A stretch of 33,526 nucleotides of DNA, from positions 1-33,526 of the forward strand of contig JAABTU010000333.1 in assembly GCA_011389715.1 (NCBI GenBank). Reading direction: 5' to 3'. The position numbers were made by a program, and so were the translations under genes. Shown here piece by piece: positions 14,163 to 31,176 of this stretch; the first letter of the stretch is position 1; the number at the start of each line of letters is the position of its first letter. The stretch comes from Desulfotignum sp. Lineage in GTDB: Bacteria > Desulfobacterota > Desulfobacteria > Desulfobacterales > Desulfobacteraceae. Below the pieces are notes generated by a model that was given only the letters and a program-made list of their open reading frames with translations, was not told the origin of the DNA and ran no database searches.

Positions 14163-16379
14163 TTAGTTGGGGGGGACCCGTTTGATCTGGTTGATCATGG
14201 AAACAAGCCGTCTGTCAGTCTGGTGAAGCCGGGCGGCCAGCACTGTGAACAGATGCTTTGCCACTTCCGGATATTTTTCAATGATCTCTTCGAGCTTGTC
14301 TCCGGGAAACCGCTTGACTTTGGACCGCCCCTTGGAGATGATGGATGCGGACCGGGCATCTTTGGTGATGGCGGCCATCTCTCCGAAATATTCACCGGGC
14401 TGGGTGATTTCAGCAATTTTTTTGCCCCCTTTCACCACATACACGGCACCCTGGACCAGTTTGAAAAAATCGATGTCTGTATTGTTTTCCCGGATAATGA
14501 CATCCTTGTCTTCATATTGTTCCACATCCGGATTCACCAGGTAGGCGGGCAGAGATTCCTTGGTGATCACTGTTTTTTTCACCACCTCTTCCAGGGAGGT
14601 CTCCCCGGTTCTGACCTTCTGGAGCCCGGCATCCCGTAATGTGACCATGCCTTCCTGAACCCCCACTTTCCGCAGCTGGTCTTCGGCCACCTCCGCGCTG
14701 ATCGCCTTGGCCACTTCATCGGTGACTTCCATGAGTTCATAGAGCCCTACCCTGCCCTTGTATCCGGTGCCGTTGCAGTGGCTGCACCCATTGGGGCCCA
14801 TAATTGTAAGCTGAGAGATCTCATCTTTGGGAAACCCCTCGAGTTCCAGCTCTTTGGGGTTATGACCGGTGACCTGTTTCTTGCATTCCGGACACAGCCG
14901 CCGGGTCAACCGCTGGGACAAAACCATGGTTACAGATGCTGCCAGCATATAGGGCGGAATACCGATATCCACCAGACGGCCGATGGTGGAGGGACAGTCA
15001 TTGGTATGCAGGGTGGCAAAGACCAGATGCCCTGTCATGGCAGCCTTTATGGCGATTTCCGCAGTATCGAGATCACGGATCTCCCCCACCATGATAATGT
15101 CCGGATCCTGCCGCAGAAAGGCTTTCAGGGCAGCGGCAAAGGTCATACCGATCTCTTCTCTCACCGGCACCTGGTTGATTCCCTTGAAGTTGAATTCCAC
15201 CGGATCTTCTGCAGTCAGAATTTTAATATCATCCTTGTTGAGCCGGTTGAGGATGGAATACAGGGTGGTGGTTTTTCCGGAACCGGTCGGCCCTGTCACC
15301 AGCAGCAGGCCGTAGGGCCGTGAAATGCTGCGCTTGAGCATGTCAAAAGTGGCGGATTCAAATCCCAGCCGGGTCAGATCGATATTCAAAGCGCTCTGGT
15401 CAAGTATCCGCATGACAATGCTCTCCCCGAACAGGGTGGGCAGAGAGGATACCCGGAAATCAACGGATTTTTTTCTGCCCAGGCGCAATTTGATCCGGCC
15501 GTCCTGGGGAACCCGTCTTTCAGCAATATCCAGGGATGCCAGAATTTTTATGCGGGAAACCACTGCATTTTTAATGGAAACCGGCAGATTCATGGCTTTG
15601 TACATGCCGCCGTCCAGCCGGTACCGGACCTGGAAAGATTTTTCAAAGGGTTCGATGTGGATGTCTGACACCCCGTCGTTGATGGCCTTGGTCAGAATCC
15701 CGTTGACAAGCTTGATGATGGGGGCATCCGAGGCCATGAATTCATCCTGGCCGTCATCTCTTTCAGCCGTGCCCACCTCGATCTCTTCAGCCGCCTCGGA
15801 AACCAGAGACCCAAAATCTTCCACAGAGGTGACAGGGGTGTCGTCTTCTGCATCTTCCTCAAAATGGAGAAAATTTTTGTACGCGTCATCACTGATCTTG
15901 TAAAAATCCCGGTAGGCCTGGATGATATCATTTTCAGTGGTGACATACACATGGATATTCTTTTTTGTCTTGTTGTGCAGGTCTTCCACCACCTGGGTAT
16001 CGGTAGGTTCCACCATGGCCACGAAAAGGTCGTCATTTTTCAGGGCCAGGGGAAAGACCATGTTTTCTTTGGCCAGATCAAAGGGGAGAATTTTCTGGGC
16101 CGCCGCATCAGGCTTCATTTCTGAAAACCGGATCACATTGTAATTATAAATCCGCCCCAATACATTGATGATGGTTTCCGGATCAATATACCCTTTGTTG
16201 AGGAGAATGGCGCTGAGGCGTTCGCCGGTCTTTCTGTGCACCCCTAAGGCCTCATCCAGCTGGAGACTGGTAATCTGGCCCTCTTTGGAAAGAATTTCCC
16301 CTATCCGGGTCTTTCCGGCGCCGGACTGGTCCTTGATGGTGGATGTAAGACTGGATTTTCCCTTTGGATTTTTAACCAT
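14163..16379 (-). CDS. PilB/GspE-family type IV pilus or type II secretion ATPase with C-terminal cyclic-nucleotide-binding-like domain
   Basis: 738 aa. T2SSE N-domain, Walker A GPTGSGKTTTLYS, Walker B-like DPDIIMVGEIRD, zinc motif CPECKK...CSHCNGTGYKGR. C-terminal ~120 aa with DIDFFKLVQGAVYVVKGGKKIAEITQPGEYFGEMAAITKDARSASIISKG resembling a cNMP fold. Confidence 0.92.
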   Translation of the reverse strand: MVKNPKGKSSLTSTIKDQSGAGKTRIGEILSKEGQITSLQLDEALGVHRKTGERLSAILLNKGYIDPETIINVLGRIYNYNVIRFSEMKPDAAAQKILPFDLAKENMVFPLALKNDDLFVAMVEPTDTQVVEDLHNKTKKNIHVYVTTENDIIQAYRDFYKISDDAYKNFLHFEEDAEDDTPVTSVEDFGSLVSEAAEEIEVGTAERDDGQDEFMASDAPIIKLVNGILTKAINDGVSDIHIEPFEKSFQVRYRLDGGMYKAMNLPVSIKNAVVSRIKILASLDIAERRVPQDGRIKLRLGRKKSVDFRVSSLPTLFGESIVMRILDQSALNIDLTRLGFESATFDMLKRSISRPYGLLLVTGPTGSGKTTTLYSILNRLNKDDIKILTAEDPVEFNFKGINQVPVREEIGMTFAAALKAFLRQDPDIIMVGEIRDLDTAEIAIKAAMTGHLVFATLHTNDCPSTIGRLVDIGIPPYMLAASVTMVLSQRLTRRLCPECKKQVTGHNPKELELEGFPKDEISQLTIMGPNGCSHCNGTGYKGRVGLYELMEVTDEVAKAISAEVAEDQLRKVGVQEGMVTLRDAGLQKVRTGETSLEEVVKKTVITKESLPAYLVNPDVEQYEDKDVIIRENNTDIDFFKLVQGAVYVVKGGKKIAEITQPGEYFGEMAAITKDARSASIISKGRSKVKRFPGDKLEEIIEKYPEVAKHLFTVLAARLHQTDRRLVSMINQIKRVPPN

Positions 16380-21348: not shown

Positions 21349-21390
21349 AGGCCCTCTGCCGCCATGTTCCAGGCAGGGGGCTTTAGCTTT
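21349..21390 (+). terminator. Probable ppdK terminator hairpin
   Basis: aggccctctgcc / ggcagggggctt stem of ~12 bp (with G-T wobbles) and an interrupted T tract, just after the ppdK stop. Confidence 0.5.
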
Positions 21391-21826
21391 AATTGATATC
21401 CACCCGGTACCGTGACCAGCCGCAGCGTTCCTTGTAGGGATAGCGCATCAGTTCTGTGGCAAGAATGGAAAAATCTTTGGACCGGATGGTAAAATACACC
21501 ACTTTTTCCGTGCCCATGATGGTTTTGACTCCCACTGCGCCGTAAAGGGTTTTGTAGGTATCTTCCACAAAACACTGCACAGCCCCTGTGATGATCACCA
21601 GATCAGATTCAGTGCGCACCTCATACACATCAATCATGGTGATATCAACGGATTTGCCCTTGAAATAGGAGGTGGGTCCGATACGCGTAAGTTCACAGGT
21701 GACAAAATTTTTAAATCCCATTTCATACCGGCGAAATTGCGCTTCATCCCCCCTGGCCAAACCGGCTGATGCCAGAAAAACAGACAAAAAAACAAACAGA
21801 TACGTCGATATGGGCCATCGCATCAT
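21389..21826 (-). CDS. Secreted hypothetical protein
   Basis: 145 aa with N-terminal signal-like MMRWPISTYLFVFLSVFLASAGLARG. Start overlaps the stop of the upstream gene by 4 bp. Confidence 0.7.
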   Translation of the reverse strand: MMRWPISTYLFVFLSVFLASAGLARGDEAQFRRYEMGFKNFVTCELTRIGPTSYFKGKSVDITMIDVYEVRTESDLVIITGAVQCFVEDTYKTLYGAVGVKTIMGTEKVVYFTIRSKDFSILATELMRYPYKERCGWSRYRVDIN

Positions 21827-22656
21827 AACGCGGCCTGTGGGTTGTCCATGGAAGGCCCCTGTTCAGTGGACACATTTTTTATCATGCCCTGGATATTTTT
21901 TTGCAGGTCTTTGAGGACCATGGGGGTAAGGACCACTGAGCCGGCACCGGAAAAAAGGTTCTGATAGTGCCGGCGGGTTTTGAGATCACGGTACCCTGTT
22001 TCCACCAGGATGGGAACCTGGTAATCGATTTTCAGCACCTGCGCCACAAAGGTTTCTGTATCAATGCCGGGCGCTTTGTGATTGGCAATGATCATCTTGA
22101 ATTTTTCAGGCTGGCTCCGGAACATCTCCAGGGCCTGGATTCCGTTCCTGGAGATCACCGGGGTAAATCCCATTGCACTGATGACATCTGCAATCAGGTT
22201 GCTGCGAATCGGGTTGGTATCAATCACCAGAATATGCCGGGTGCCCATGATGGTCACGGTTTGTTCTGCTGGTGCACCTGCGGGAAAAAGGGCGGCCCAG
22301 TTCTCATTGCCCACAGGATGCAGCTGGGTAACATCCATTTCATAGGCATGGGAAGCCACAAACTGATCATCTTCAGTATCTGCCAGCCGGGCGATGAACC
22401 GGTTGTTTTCTGCAATGTACTGGCGCAGCCATGTACGGTAGATCAGATCTTCTCCTTTGAGAATCAGCAGTTTGGGACCTGCATGGGTATTCACCTGGAT
22501 GGAATGATAGATCTGCGGGGTGTTGGAATAGGGAATCCGGGTTTCCTTGTAGTTTTCCGCTATAAATTCAACCATGAAATCCCTGGCAGAACAGGGGGTG
22601 ACTACCAGCACAATGATAAGTACCGGGATAAGCAAAATGCCTGTTATCTGTTTCAT
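21823..22656 (-). CDS. Exported protein with novel N-domain and degenerate response-regulator receiver-like domain
   Basis: Signal-like MKQITGILLIPVLIIVLVVTPCSA. C-terminal HILVIDTNPIRSNLIADVISAMGFTPVISRNGIQALEMFRSQPEKFKMIIANHKAPGID...VPILVETGYRD follows the REC pattern. Confidence 0.75.
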   Translation of the reverse strand: MKQITGILLIPVLIIVLVVTPCSARDFMVEFIAENYKETRIPYSNTPQIYHSIQVNTHAGPKLLILKGEDLIYRTWLRQYIAENNRFIARLADTEDDQFVASHAYEMDVTQLHPVGNENWAALFPAGAPAEQTVTIMGTRHILVIDTNPIRSNLIADVISAMGFTPVISRNGIQALEMFRSQPEKFKMIIANHKAPGIDTETFVAQVLKIDYQVPILVETGYRDLKTRRHYQNLFSGAGSVVLTPMVLKDLQKNIQGMIKNVSTEQGPSMDNPQAAL

Positions 22657-22693
22657 GATCCGATCCTTTTTTCAGTTCCAGCACAAATATACC

Positions 22694-23092
22694 TTATATC
22701 GGCCAGAGTCCTGACAATCTTGAACCCCATATCATGAGCCAGTATATGAAAAACAGGGTCAGGTAAAGGCCGCCCAGAACTATCATCTGTTTTTTCAGGT
22801 CATTTTTGCGCCGGGCCCGAAACCGTGCCAGAATCACACCAAAAATACTGATGGCAAGTCCCAGAAAAATAATATATAACAGGGACTGCAAAAAACGCAA
22901 CTCCCAGACTGTTCTGAGATCAAGCTGGTAAAACCGGTCAAAAAAGGTTTCAAACTCCGGCTGGGCCAGGTGAAATACCAGCATAAAAACAAAAAGAACG
23001 GTCCAGGCAAACAGATGCAGGGCAGTGAACACCCTGGCCCAGACATCTTTTGATTTGCGCCGTTCAAAGGGTTTTGTGCTGTAATTGTTCAG
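22694..23092 (-). CDS. Membrane protein, unknown function (candidate CTG start; conservative GTG start at 23032)
   Basis: Open frame LNNYSTKPFERRKSKDVWARVFTALHLFAWTVLFVFMLVF... preceded by AAGGAG-5 nt-CTG. The track ORF (22694..23032) uses an internal GTG. Confidence 0.6.
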   Translation of the reverse strand: MNNYSTKPFERRKSKDVWARVFTALHLFAWTVLFVFMLVFHLAQPEFETFFDRFYQLDLRTVWELRFLQSLLYIIFLGLAISIFGVILARFRARRKNDLKKQMIVLGGLYLTLFFIYWLMIWGSRLSGLWPI

Positions 23093-23148
23093 GTTTTCTC
23101 CTTGGTTTTTTTATTGGGTATGTTGACAACATATATTATGGTTTTGCC

Positions 23149-23946
23149 ATGAATGAAATAGTTCTTTCCAAAAACCAGTTTCTTGAATTAAAGCATCTGG
23201 TATACCAGACGTCTGGGATCAATCTGCATGAGGGCAAAAAAGAGCTGCTCAAATCCAAACTTGCCAAGCGGATGCGTCTGACCAGAAAAAATTTTGACCA
23301 ATACCTTGCCTATCTGGCTTCCAATGAACAGGAAGTGGTGGAATTTATTGACACTGTCACCACCAACCACTCCTATTTTTTCAGGGAAAACAAAAGCATT
23401 GCTTACATGGTGCAGCATTTTAAAGGCAATGCCCCCCAAAAAAATCAGGTCTTCAAAATATGGTGTGCTGCCTGTTCCACCGGAGATGAACCCTATTCCA
23501 TTGCCATTCAGCTTCTGGAAGCAGGCCTGAATTTTTCCATACTGGCCACTGACATATCCCATTCTGTTCTGGCCACGGCTGTCCGGGGCATTTACCGCGT
23601 TGACAAGACCAGAAATATCCCCAATCCCTTGCTGCGCCGGTATTTTCAACAGGGAACCGGCAAATACCAGAACCATGTAAAAATCAAAAAACAGGTGCAG
23701 GGATATATCAGTTTCCAGCGATTCAACCTGATAACGGACACACCGCAAGACCAGGGGTTTGATGCGGTTGTCTGCCGGAATGTCATGATATATTTTGATC
23801 TGCCCACCAGCGAAAAGGTTGTAAACAAACTCTATGGGGCGGTTGTGCCCAAGGGTTTTTTTGCCATTGGCAATGCAGAAAGTCTCATGAACCTGAAACA
23901 CAAATTTTCATCCATACCAAAGGTACCCTCTTTGTATGTGAAATAA
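23149..23946 (+). CDS. cheR: CheR-family protein-glutamate methyltransferase
   Basis: MNEIVLSKNQFLELKHLVYQTSGI..., TVTTNHSYFFRE, KIWCAACSTGDEPYSIAI, DAVVCRNVMIYFD, IGNAESL. Start set at 23149. Confidence 0.93.
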   Translation: MNEIVLSKNQFLELKHLVYQTSGINLHEGKKELLKSKLAKRMRLTRKNFDQYLAYLASNEQEVVEFIDTVTTNHSYFFRENKSIAYMVQHFKGNAPQKNQVFKIWCAACSTGDEPYSIAIQLLEAGLNFSILATDISHSVLATAVRGIYRVDKTRNIPNPLLRRYFQQGTGKYQNHVKIKKQVQGYISFQRFNLITDTPQDQGFDAVVCRNVMIYFDLPTSEKVVNKLYGAVVPKGFFAIGNAESLMNLKHKFSSIPKVPSLYVK

Positions 23947-26016: not shown

Positions 26017-27288
26017 TCAACAGGTTTCAGGGATGATGCGGCAGACATCCAAAATCTGTGTTTTTCCCTTTATTTTCAACGCACCCAGCTGATCGATCCG
26101 GGCTATGTTGCCAAGGGTTTCAATATCCGCTTTCATCTCATCAAAGACCTTTGCGGACAGATAAATCTCATTTCCCCTGGCCATGGACTGCAGGCGCTGG
26201 GCCGAATTCACCGTATCTCCTATGACCGTATAGTTCAGATGGTTCTCCTCGCCTAAAAACCCGGCAATCAACTCCCCGGTGTTGATGCCCACCGTCATTT
26301 TCAATTTTTCACAGATCCCCCCTTTTTTATGCTTGAACCGGTTAAAGGCAAAAAACATGTCAAGGGCCGCAGACACGGCATGGAGACTGCATTTTTCATC
26401 ATGCAGGGGGGCGCCGAAAATGGCCATCACGCAGTCACCCATCAATTTATCCAGGGTTCCGGAATGTTTAAATACAACGGGAATCATATGGGAAAAAAAA
26501 TCATTCAGGATCACCACCACCTCTTCAGGGGAAATCGTTTCTGAAAGGGTTGTGAACCCCTGAAGATCTGCAAAAAGAATACAGGCTTTTATCCGCTCCC
26601 CGCCCAGTCGGGGCCGGCCGCTTTTCAAAATTTTATCCACCACATTTTTTGAAAAAAAACGGGACAAGTACATAATATGCTTTTCTTCACTGAGCTTGTC
26701 GAAATAAAACCGCTGAAAGGAAACCGTATTCATCAAATGATCCCTGACAATGGCATAAAAGTAGCTGTCTGCGGCTTGAAACCCCTGTTTTTTATTTTTA
26801 AATAAAACCAAAGCCCCATGAACATCTCCCCGTGAAATCATGGGCATCGCATAAAGCGATCCTTCCATATCATTGAATTCATCATAGTTGCTTACGTCTT
26901 CAATGATGATTTCTTCTTTGCCCGTTGTCAGGTTTTTCAACAGGCGGCTTTGCCGTAAAAAAGAATAATCCATCTGATTGTCAAAACTCGATCCGATGAT
27001 TTTCCCCTGGTGGTGCAAAAAATCCTTAAACAGATACAACACCGCACCGGACAGATTTTTATACTTGACCAGACAATCCAGTTGACTTCGCCAGATCCGA
27101 TCATGATCGGTAACGTCAATGGATTTCATTGCGGCAACCATTTCTTTTATAATGGACAGTTCATTGATTTTATGTTCATACTTTTGCTGGACAGTTAAAA
27201 ATTTATTTGTAATAAATTGAAACTGGGCCGGGCTCGGGGTGCTTGTCAGCTTTGTGCCGTCCATCATATCTTCCTTTTCCGACATCAT
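26017..27288 (-). CDS. Class III adenylate cyclase with N-terminal GAF-like region
   Basis: ACILFADLQGFTTLSE, GTLDKLMGDCVMAIFGAP, VGINTGELIAGFLGEENHLNYTVIGDTVNSAQRLQ. The K and D positions fit ATP specificity. Confidence 0.9.
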   Translation of the reverse strand: MMSEKEDMMDGTKLTSTPSPAQFQFITNKFLTVQQKYEHKINELSIIKEMVAAMKSIDVTDHDRIWRSQLDCLVKYKNLSGAVLYLFKDFLHHQGKIIGSSFDNQMDYSFLRQSRLLKNLTTGKEEIIIEDVSNYDEFNDMEGSLYAMPMISRGDVHGALVLFKNKKQGFQAADSYFYAIVRDHLMNTVSFQRFYFDKLSEEKHIMYLSRFFSKNVVDKILKSGRPRLGGERIKACILFADLQGFTTLSETISPEEVVVILNDFFSHMIPVVFKHSGTLDKLMGDCVMAIFGAPLHDEKCSLHAVSAALDMFFAFNRFKHKKGGICEKLKMTVGINTGELIAGFLGEENHLNYTVIGDTVNSAQRLQSMARGNEIYLSAKVFDEMKADIETLGNIARIDQLGALKIKGKTQILDVCRIIPETC

Positions 27289-29415: not shown

Positions 29416-30100
29416 CGGCAAAGCCGGAGGCTTGTATTGTGAACCGCTCAAAGCGGTCATAAAAGCGTGAGCCACCTAAAGGTGACTAAAACAATTCCAG
29501 TTGATCTGTTTTTCTATCAGCAGTTTCTGTTTCTGGATGTATTTCCTTACAGTCTCTTCATCTCGTCCAACTGTTGAAACCTAACGCGGGAAACCCGCAA
29601 CCCAGATGCTCCTCCTCATTTTCTTGTTTTTTTTACAGAAACTGAGGAGTAATGCAATAATAACCTCTGGCCCAAAAGTTTTGCCCAACAAAATTGCGTT
29701 TTTTGCCAGCATAGGTTCGAGCTATATGAATAGCGCTTTTCCCTTTAATGTAACCGACAACTTGAGCTACTGAATACTTCGGTGGTATTGCTATCAGCAT
29801 ATGAACGTGATCTCCCATCAGATGCCCTTCAAGAATCTCTGATTCTCTTTGTAATGCCAAATCTCTAAAAACTTCAACGAGATATTTTCTCAGCTGGCCA
29901 TATATTGCTTTTTTCGATATTTTGGAATCCAAACAATATGATACTTGCAATCATAGGTCGTATGGTTTAATTTTCTATTGTTATTCATTAAAAGTCTCCT
30001 TCTCTGTGATCTTTAAGCGGTTCACAGTTTGGGAGACTTTCTTATATTCCCGCAAATGTCAAACTTTGGGAGTCTCCCCGGCATAGCCGGGGGTTTACCT
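29415..30100 (-). mobile_element. Degenerate IS200/IS605-family (IS200-like) element; boundaries approximate
   Basis: Y1 transposase remnant flanked by end-type hairpins cctccggcaaagccggagg (29412-29430) and ccccggcatagccgggg (about 30077-30093). Confidence 0.8.
29476..29988 (-). pseudogene. tnpA: IS200-type TnpA (Y1 transposase), frameshifted and interrupted
   Basis: From 29988: MNNNRKLNHTTYDCKYHIVWIPKYRKK, frameshift, AIYGQLRKYLVEVFRDLALQ...GDHVHMLIAIPPKYSVAQVVGYIKGKSAIHIART...NFWARGYY, ~76-bp insert, VSTVGRDEETVRKYIQKQKLLIEKQINWNCFSHL*. Confidence 0.88.
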
Positions 30101-30133: not shown

Positions 30134-31176
30134 AGCCCTGCAGACCGCCGGTGATGTGTTTGCCGCCAGAAATGAAGACAGCCAGGCTTTTTATTTTTAT
30201 CTGGAGGGCATGGGCCATGCAACCGATGCCCATCAAAACCAGGACTTTCTTGAACGTATCCTGGCTGTCACGGCCCGGATGCCCTCGGAAAAGATCATCG
30301 CCCTGGTTGACGGGGCAGGTGCACAGGATACTGACAATACCGGAAGAATTTTGTATGGGTCTGGTGTGGCAAAATTGGAAGGCCAGGACAAAGAAGGGGC
30401 TGCAAAGCTTTTGAAGGAAATTGTCGCAAGGTTTGCCGGCACCCCTGAAGCTGAGCAGGCAGCCGGAGAACGGGCGTTAAACGCCATACAGATGGCTGTG
30501 GATGCGGTGAACCAGTCAGGACAGAGCGGTTTTACCCTGCTGGTCCGGGACACCCTGTCAGATCCGGCAGGGGCTGCGGCCGCGGTGCGGTATCTGGAAA
30601 AAACAAGGCTGCCTGTATCATCGGCCCCATGGTGACGGCGGAACCTGCCGCTGTCCAGGCCCAGGCGCTGCAAATCCCCATGATCACCCTGAGCCAGCAG
30701 GCCGGGATCCCGGAAACCGGGCAAAGGTGAACTTTGATGCCCTGTTCATTCCGGACAGTCCCCTAAGAGCAGGCCAGATTGCCATGCAGCTCAAATATCA
30801 CGGCTTTCGCGATGTGGTCCTTTTAGGCACAAACATCTGGAATGCAGATACTTTTTTTGAGGCGGTGGGCGATTATCCGCCTCGCACGGTTTTTCCGGTG
30901 GATTTTTATGCGGATAATCCAGCAGAACAGGTGCAGGGATTTGTTGCTGCCTATGAAGAGATGTTCGGCGCCCTGCCCGATTATTTTGCCGCCATTGCCT
31001 TTGATACCGCCAATCTGGTCATGCACTGCCTGTCTGAGCCCGGGCTGACCTCAAAATCCCAATTTGTGCAGACTTTGAAAACCCTGCGTTATGACGGCGG
31101 CGTCACCAGCCCCACATCCTTTGACAAAACCGGGGAATGCATCAAATCCCTCCACCTGCTCGGGGTCACGAACTGA
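30117..31176 (+). pseudogene. Periplasmic binding protein (Peripla_BP_6 / penicillin-binding-protein-activator-like) pseudogene
   Basis: Three frames needed: ORF 30117-30635; then KAACIIGPMVTAEPAAVQAQALQIPMITLSQQAGIPETGQR* (to 30730); then NFDALFIPDSPLRAGQIAMQLKYHGFRDVVLLGTNIWN... to 31176. N-terminus missing. Confidence 0.82.

Follow-up and report, generated by a model that had tools for sequence, protein, structure and literature searches.

A degenerate receiver domain behind a signal peptide, with a co-occurring exported partner, in Desulfobacteraceae-like sulfate reducers

Background

Receiver domains are among the commonest bacterial domains and are treated as cytoplasmic. The closest described relatives of the protein reported here are the bacterial pseudo-receivers, or aspartate-less receivers, which keep the receiver fold without the catalytic residues (PMC12632262, PMC4395418). 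One of them, FrzS of Myxococcus xanthus, acts by protein contact via its alpha3-beta4-alpha4 face, and a 2025 review regards the way bacterial pseudo-receivers are switched as a mystery (PMC12632262). The periplasm, export, and signal peptides have no mention in the pseudo-receiver reviews PMC12632262 and PMC4395418. When we searched the open literature for receivers that are exported or periplasmic, the one phrase hit was irrelevant and nothing else of use emerged, though such a protein may have been noted elsewhere.

Here we describe a receiver gene in a stretch of 33,526 nucleotides from Desulfotignum sp. (contig JAABTU010000333.1), which we call the window. Its product falls within the published definition of a pseudo-receiver. 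Compared with the reviewed pseudo-receivers, such as FrzS, its receiver domain lies behind a signal peptide and is fused to an exported module. What is new is the place and the partner.

The locus and its receiver domain

The receiver gene is real; its open reading frame is complete, with 277 codons and AAGGA 7 bases 5' of the ATG. The features of the locus, in window coordinates, are as follows.

21823-22656, minus strand: module-plus-receiver gene, an ORF with ATG start encoding 277 aa (P0001); 45 homologues have the same layout or a sub-layout
22585-22656, minus strand: signal peptide, residues 1-24, with predicted cleavage between CSA and RD (A-x-A site and charge bias)
22297-22584, minus strand: N-terminal exported module, residues 25-120, which also occurs alone in other families
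22240-22296, minus strand: variable linker, residues 121-139, with the top dN/dS of all segments (0.61)
21880-22239, minus strand: receiver domain, residues 140-259, with degenerate active site (profile, fold, tree)
22081-22083, minus strand: Asn192 codon, at the phospho-acceptor Asp position (alignment of 39 homologues)
21997-21999, minus strand: Thr220 codon of the retained T-G-Y motif (same alignment of 39)
21925-21927, minus strand: Thr244 codon, at the conserved Lys position (same alignment of 39)
21389-21826, minus strand: partner gene, 145 aa with signal peptide, in the same 59/391 genomes as the receiver fusion
22694-23092, minus strand: usual third gene, a three-helix membrane protein, in 46/59 fusion-bearing genomes
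23050-23943, plus strand: divergent cheR-type methyltransferase gene (Pfam CheR, E 3.8e-49)

Elsewhere in the window lie a gene for a PilB/GspE-type secretion ATPase that carries an MshEN domain and, at its C-terminus, a cyclic-nucleotide-binding domain (14163-16379, minus strand) and, in the same window as this ATPase, a class III nucleotidyl cyclase gene (26017-27288). An IS200-type transposase gene (29636-29950, minus strand) and a short piece of a gene for a periplasmic binding protein (30727-31173, plus strand) were also observed.

The Pfam profile Response_reg (PF00072) matches residues 142-254 of the window protein alone with an E-value of 8.8e-5 and 23.1 bits, a single match that falls below the gathering cut-off of 30.2 bits. 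Across diverse family members, the same profile matched 27/27, with a best E-value of 3.2e-13. The FleQ N-domain (PF06490), a minor pseudo-receiver group in Pfam, was matched weakly by 20/27 members, with PF00072 scoring better; FleQ differs in being a cytoplasmic transcription factor. A sequence search of the receiver against solved structures returned the Spo0F, RcsC, and MtrA receivers.

An AlphaFold model of moderate confidence was built from a six-row alignment, with a pLDDT of ~65-86 in the receiver and lower values in the N-terminal module. Within residues 141-258 it has the five alternating strand/helix pairs of a (beta-alpha)5 fold: 141-145/149-161, 165-169/172-181, 186-192/200-210, 216-219/225-235, and 241-244/248-258. 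The receiver model had 433 PDB matches at E <= 0.001, and the top solved structure was Spo0F (6ifh), with a TM-score of 0.83 on the target. Spo0F (6ifh, 1nat) is the nearest solved receiver, with the same fold and 23% identity, but it is a cytoplasmic phosphorelay protein with an intact site. The initial annotation had called the domain receiver-like and named an AlphaFold model as a check; by profile, modelled fold, PDB matches, and a tree clade with 100/100 support (see below), it is a true receiver.

A recurrent module and a co-occurring partner

Between the signal peptide and the linker, residues 25-120 follow the consensus ...YHSIQV..AG.KLLIL.G.D..YR.WLR.YIA.... This stretch was initially annotated as unassigned sequence behind the signal. 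It does follow the signal, but it is a distinct module, which also occurs alone as an exported protein of ~145 aa in other families of the same order. We found no relative of the module in Pfam, NCBIfam, or PDB sequences, and when another 396 genomes were drawn from the phylum, the module turned up in none except the window's own. The genes around the stand-alone module were rejected as a guide to its function, given that they vary between families, close relatives excepted.

The receiver gene's stop codon and the partner gene's ATG overlap in an ATGA. The 145-aa partner protein has a signal peptide and three Cys that are invariant among the aligned homologues. It has no known family in Pfam, NCBIfam, or PDB sequences, and its AlphaFold model (pLDDT 41) was too poor for structure search. 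The mature part of the window's receiver protein has no Cys, though its partner has these three.

In a sample of 391 genomes of the class, the module was found in 72, of which 59 belong to the window's family (Desulfobacteraceae-like) and 13 to other families of the same order. The fusion to a receiver was found in 59/391 genomes, all of that one family, and the partner was found in exactly these 59 when the two genome lists were compared by eye, with 0/332 in the others. In the 13 out-of-family module genomes, the module takes a short receiver-less form wherever the frame is readable, and none has the partner. Given its presence in 59/59 fusion genomes and 0/13 receiver-less ones, the partner follows the receiver-bearing form and not the module. 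Counts of this kind are inflated when neighbouring genes are inherited jointly, but fusion and partner are also present or absent together within genera. Since the co-occurrence of adjacent genes also arises by joint inheritance or deletion, the pattern is evidence for a functional unit and not for binding.

The membrane protein encoded by the third gene is present in 46/59 fusion genomes and in three others. It has three predicted helices and a conserved loop (AQPEFETFFDRFY..LRT.W) that is predicted to face the periplasm. Its start is probably the CTG at 23092, which follows a GGAG. Standard ORF calling places the start at GTG 23032 and loses the conserved ERRK..D start.

The cheR gene often neighbours the receiver locus; in the other half of the genus it is missing along with the three genes. 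Four same-genus relatives (L192-L195) cleanly lack cheR, the membrane protein, the receiver gene, and the partner as one block, and the flanking kinase-PPPase and pyruvate phosphate dikinase genes are ~50 bp apart, compared with the 21389-23943 interval in the window. We rejected cheR as an obligate partner, given that it adjoins only about half of the informative loci. No partner kinase gene adjoining the receiver gene was found at the locus, and the neighbouring genes pointed to no function.

Loss of the active site under continued selection

Active-site positions were assigned by alignment to Spo0F and to the family (39 exported homologues). In the window protein they are D146/T147 for the DD pair, N192 for the acceptor, T220 for the switch Thr, and T244 for the Lys, so that the expected D-D / D / T / K reads D-T / N / T / T, an incomplete catalytic set. 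The hand alignment of the initial annotation had these positions right, including the retained switch Thr region with Thr220 of the T-G-Y motif. Its proposed Asp-to-Asn change is the commonest state among the homologues but is not universal, as the acceptor is N in 25/39, D in 8, Q in 2, and H, T, S, or E in 1 each. The Lys position is K in 21, T in 15, and another residue in 3. In the DD pair, 6/39 retain the second acid, while at the first position 38 have D and 1 has E; Thr220 is kept in 36/39, and Tyr222, Phe186, Pro183, and Leu251 are invariant (39/39).

All five catalytic residues are kept in 4/39 homologues (L052, L054, L059, and L060), all of which carry signal peptides and may be phosphorylatable, judging from their residues. 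The combination of an intact Asp with a cytoplasmic topology, which had been named in advance as evidence against an exported pseudo-receiver, was not found, and the intact-Asp homologues carry signal peptides. In L060 (7812-8981), an insertion of ~45 residues was observed directly after the phospho-acceptor Asp.

In the tree, the 39 exported receivers form one clade (100/100 support) beside receivers of hybrid-kinase type. These nearest non-family receivers sit near the ends of long ORFs, mostly of 450-1600 codons, and their type was assigned by ORF size and motif pattern alone. The sister group, the hybrid histidine kinase receivers (PF00072; pattern ...FDLVITD..MP.M.G...TG(F/Y)S...KP), has the same fold and motif skeleton of DP.KF, TG-aromatic, and KP. 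By comparison, the window family is exported, has no kinase in the protein and almost no Cys, and has mostly lost the second DD acid, the acceptor Asp, and the Lys. All 39 exported receivers have V or I at the K-3 position, so that the aromatic residue for Y-T coupling is absent (for the meaning of this position, see PMC12632262). They also have two extra residues at the end of alpha4, where an aromatic is found (F in 37, Y in 2). Relative to receivers of hybrid-kinase type, conservation is lower in the beta3-alpha3 loop beside the active site (2.2 vs 3.5 bits/column) and higher in the alpha2-beta3 loop QPEKF (4.0 vs 2.7 bits/column).

With the tree rooted on cytoplasmic receivers, the clade with intact active sites branches first. 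A full-length tree from which the catalytic columns had been excluded required at least 7 state changes at the acceptor position and at least 5 at the Lys position. Given the single clade, the early intact branch, and the repeated state changes, it is probable that export happened a single time, to a receiver that still worked, and that its chemistry was lost on several later occasions. Export probably preceded decay, since the early branches with intact sites are also exported.

The within-genus dN/dS values were 0.18 (receiver), 0.21 (module), 0.19 (partner), and 0.61 (linker). The low value for the receiver argues that the degenerate domain is maintained, and it disfavours a neutral remnant. 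The receiver could still be a passive leftover of the fusion, a slowly decaying spacer beside an exported module that does the work, as the decay of catalytic residues in many lineages and the existence of the module on its own elsewhere in the order would suggest. We consider this unlikely, given that the receiver is more constrained than the module, that every fusion lineage examined retains it at full length with the four invariant residues, and that the partner tracks the receiver-bearing form.

A quite unlikely alternative is that the acidic pocket, with its first acid kept, became the binding site of a periplasmic sensor for a metal or small ligand. Such a site would account for a first acid and a Thr220 that are nearly always kept as the Lys and acceptor vary. 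However, the second acid and the acceptor Asp are each kept in only a minority, the replacing residues differ between lineages in a way not expected of a common ligand site, and D146 may be kept for structural reasons.

A version of the module with a coiled-coil tail sits at another locus in some family members. We observed such paralogues in L051, L055, L172, L175, and L176, where a charged coiled-coil tail replaces the receiver; by a look at the sequences, those of L172, L175, and L176 adjoin MoxR-, VWA-, TatD-, FtsE-, FtsX-, and EnvC-like genes. The placement of a paralogue between MoxR/VWA-type genes and TatD-, FtsE-, FtsX-, and EnvC-like genes would be in keeping with the window protein and its partner forming a machine for envelope assembly or the cell wall, in which the receiver is a docking wedge, instead of a sensory pathway. 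We regard this as quite improbable, as the surroundings of the paralogue say nothing direct about the receiver locus, and no envelope enzyme is found there.

Export signal and topology

The signal peptide of the window protein reads MKQITGILLIPVLIIVLVVTPCSA, with predicted cleavage before RD. Signal-peptide features (n-, h-, and c-region and cleavage site) were scored by scripted rules in 45 homologues, and by these rules the window protein has the n-, h-, and c-regions and the A-x-A site expected for Sec export and signal peptidase I. A-x-A-type cleavage sites, with Ala at -1 and a small residue or Cys at -3, were found in 43/45 homologues, K or R among the first ten residues in 43/45, and a strongly hydrophobic core in all 45. 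The mean charge was +1.5 in the n-region and -2.6 over the first fifteen mature residues. With a positive n-region and a negative mature start, an N-in/C-out topology is predicted, and this charge bias holds in 44/45. The signal sequence has a dN/dS of 0.28, indicating purifying selection. The hydrophobic N-terminal signal proposed in the initial annotation is thus borne out by cleavage site and charge bias across the family.

A lipoprotein was rejected for the window protein, which by eye has no lipobox and reads V-T-P-C; its relative L028 (FLLGC) might be one. Cys residues occur in 4/39 exported receivers compared with 20/23 in a set drawn from hybrid-kinase-length ORFs in the same family, a difference whose p-value takes no account of relatedness, and the Cys share of residues is 0.10% compared with 1.0%. 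The partner protein and the module in its stand-alone forms likewise start with signal peptides. From the signal peptide, charge bias, and Cys depletion, we infer that the receiver is periplasmic.

An internal start at Met28, the candidate for a cytoplasmic start past the hydrophobic stretch, is unlikely and was rejected because Met28 is conserved in only 25/45 homologues. That the hydrophobic start is skipped in this way or inverted (C-in), leaving an ordinary cytoplasmic pseudo-receiver, is very improbable; an AGGGA precedes Met28 in the window genome and cheR is a frequent neighbour, but the poor conservation of Met28, the selection on the signal sequence and its cleavage motif, the C-out charge bias, the loss of Cys in the receivers, and the export of both the coupled partner and the stand-alone module all stand against it.

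A proposed role outside the cytoplasm

The reading that we favour, with moderate confidence and on sequence evidence, is that the receiver would be a periplasmic, phosphorylation-independent docking module acting with the exported partner. In the ancestor of the family, a receiver of hybrid-histidine-kinase type would have been joined to a small exported protein. As the fusion carries a Sec-type signal peptide, the receiver would be threaded through the membrane and fold in the periplasm, a compartment that lacks ATP and kinase domains. Freed from phosphotransfer, it would have lost its catalytic residues independently in several lineages (with N at the acceptor position here), and selection would have continued to act on the fold as well as on the T-G-Y and alpha2-beta3 (QPEKF) loops. 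The receiver would now present a phosphorylation-independent interaction surface.

The receiver protein most probably works with the translationally coupled exported partner (window 21389-21826), which it may bind directly. The three-helix protein, whose gene lies immediately upstream, may hold such a complex at the inner membrane, so that the module and the membrane protein would tie receiver and partner to the envelope. The initial annotation had proposed a phosphorylation-independent protein-interaction module in the periplasm; this proposal gains support here and fits the constraint on the receiver and its co-occurrence with an exported partner, with the interaction role itself a plausible one. 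It is a long shot that the intact-site receivers of L052, L054, L059, and L060 would still respond in the periplasm to a switching agent, whether a metal or some unknown phospho-donor, in which case the family would be a stepwise record of the passage from a phospho-switch to a phosphorylation-free module after export.

Conclusions

A single exported clade spans the range from intact to fully degenerate active sites, and a partner tracks that clade perfectly. The family may thus offer a natural series for asking what the receiver fold does once phosphorylation is impossible, with a concrete candidate for the protein it works with. The co-occurrence also links conserved families that have no assigned function, in sulfate reducers of environmental importance.
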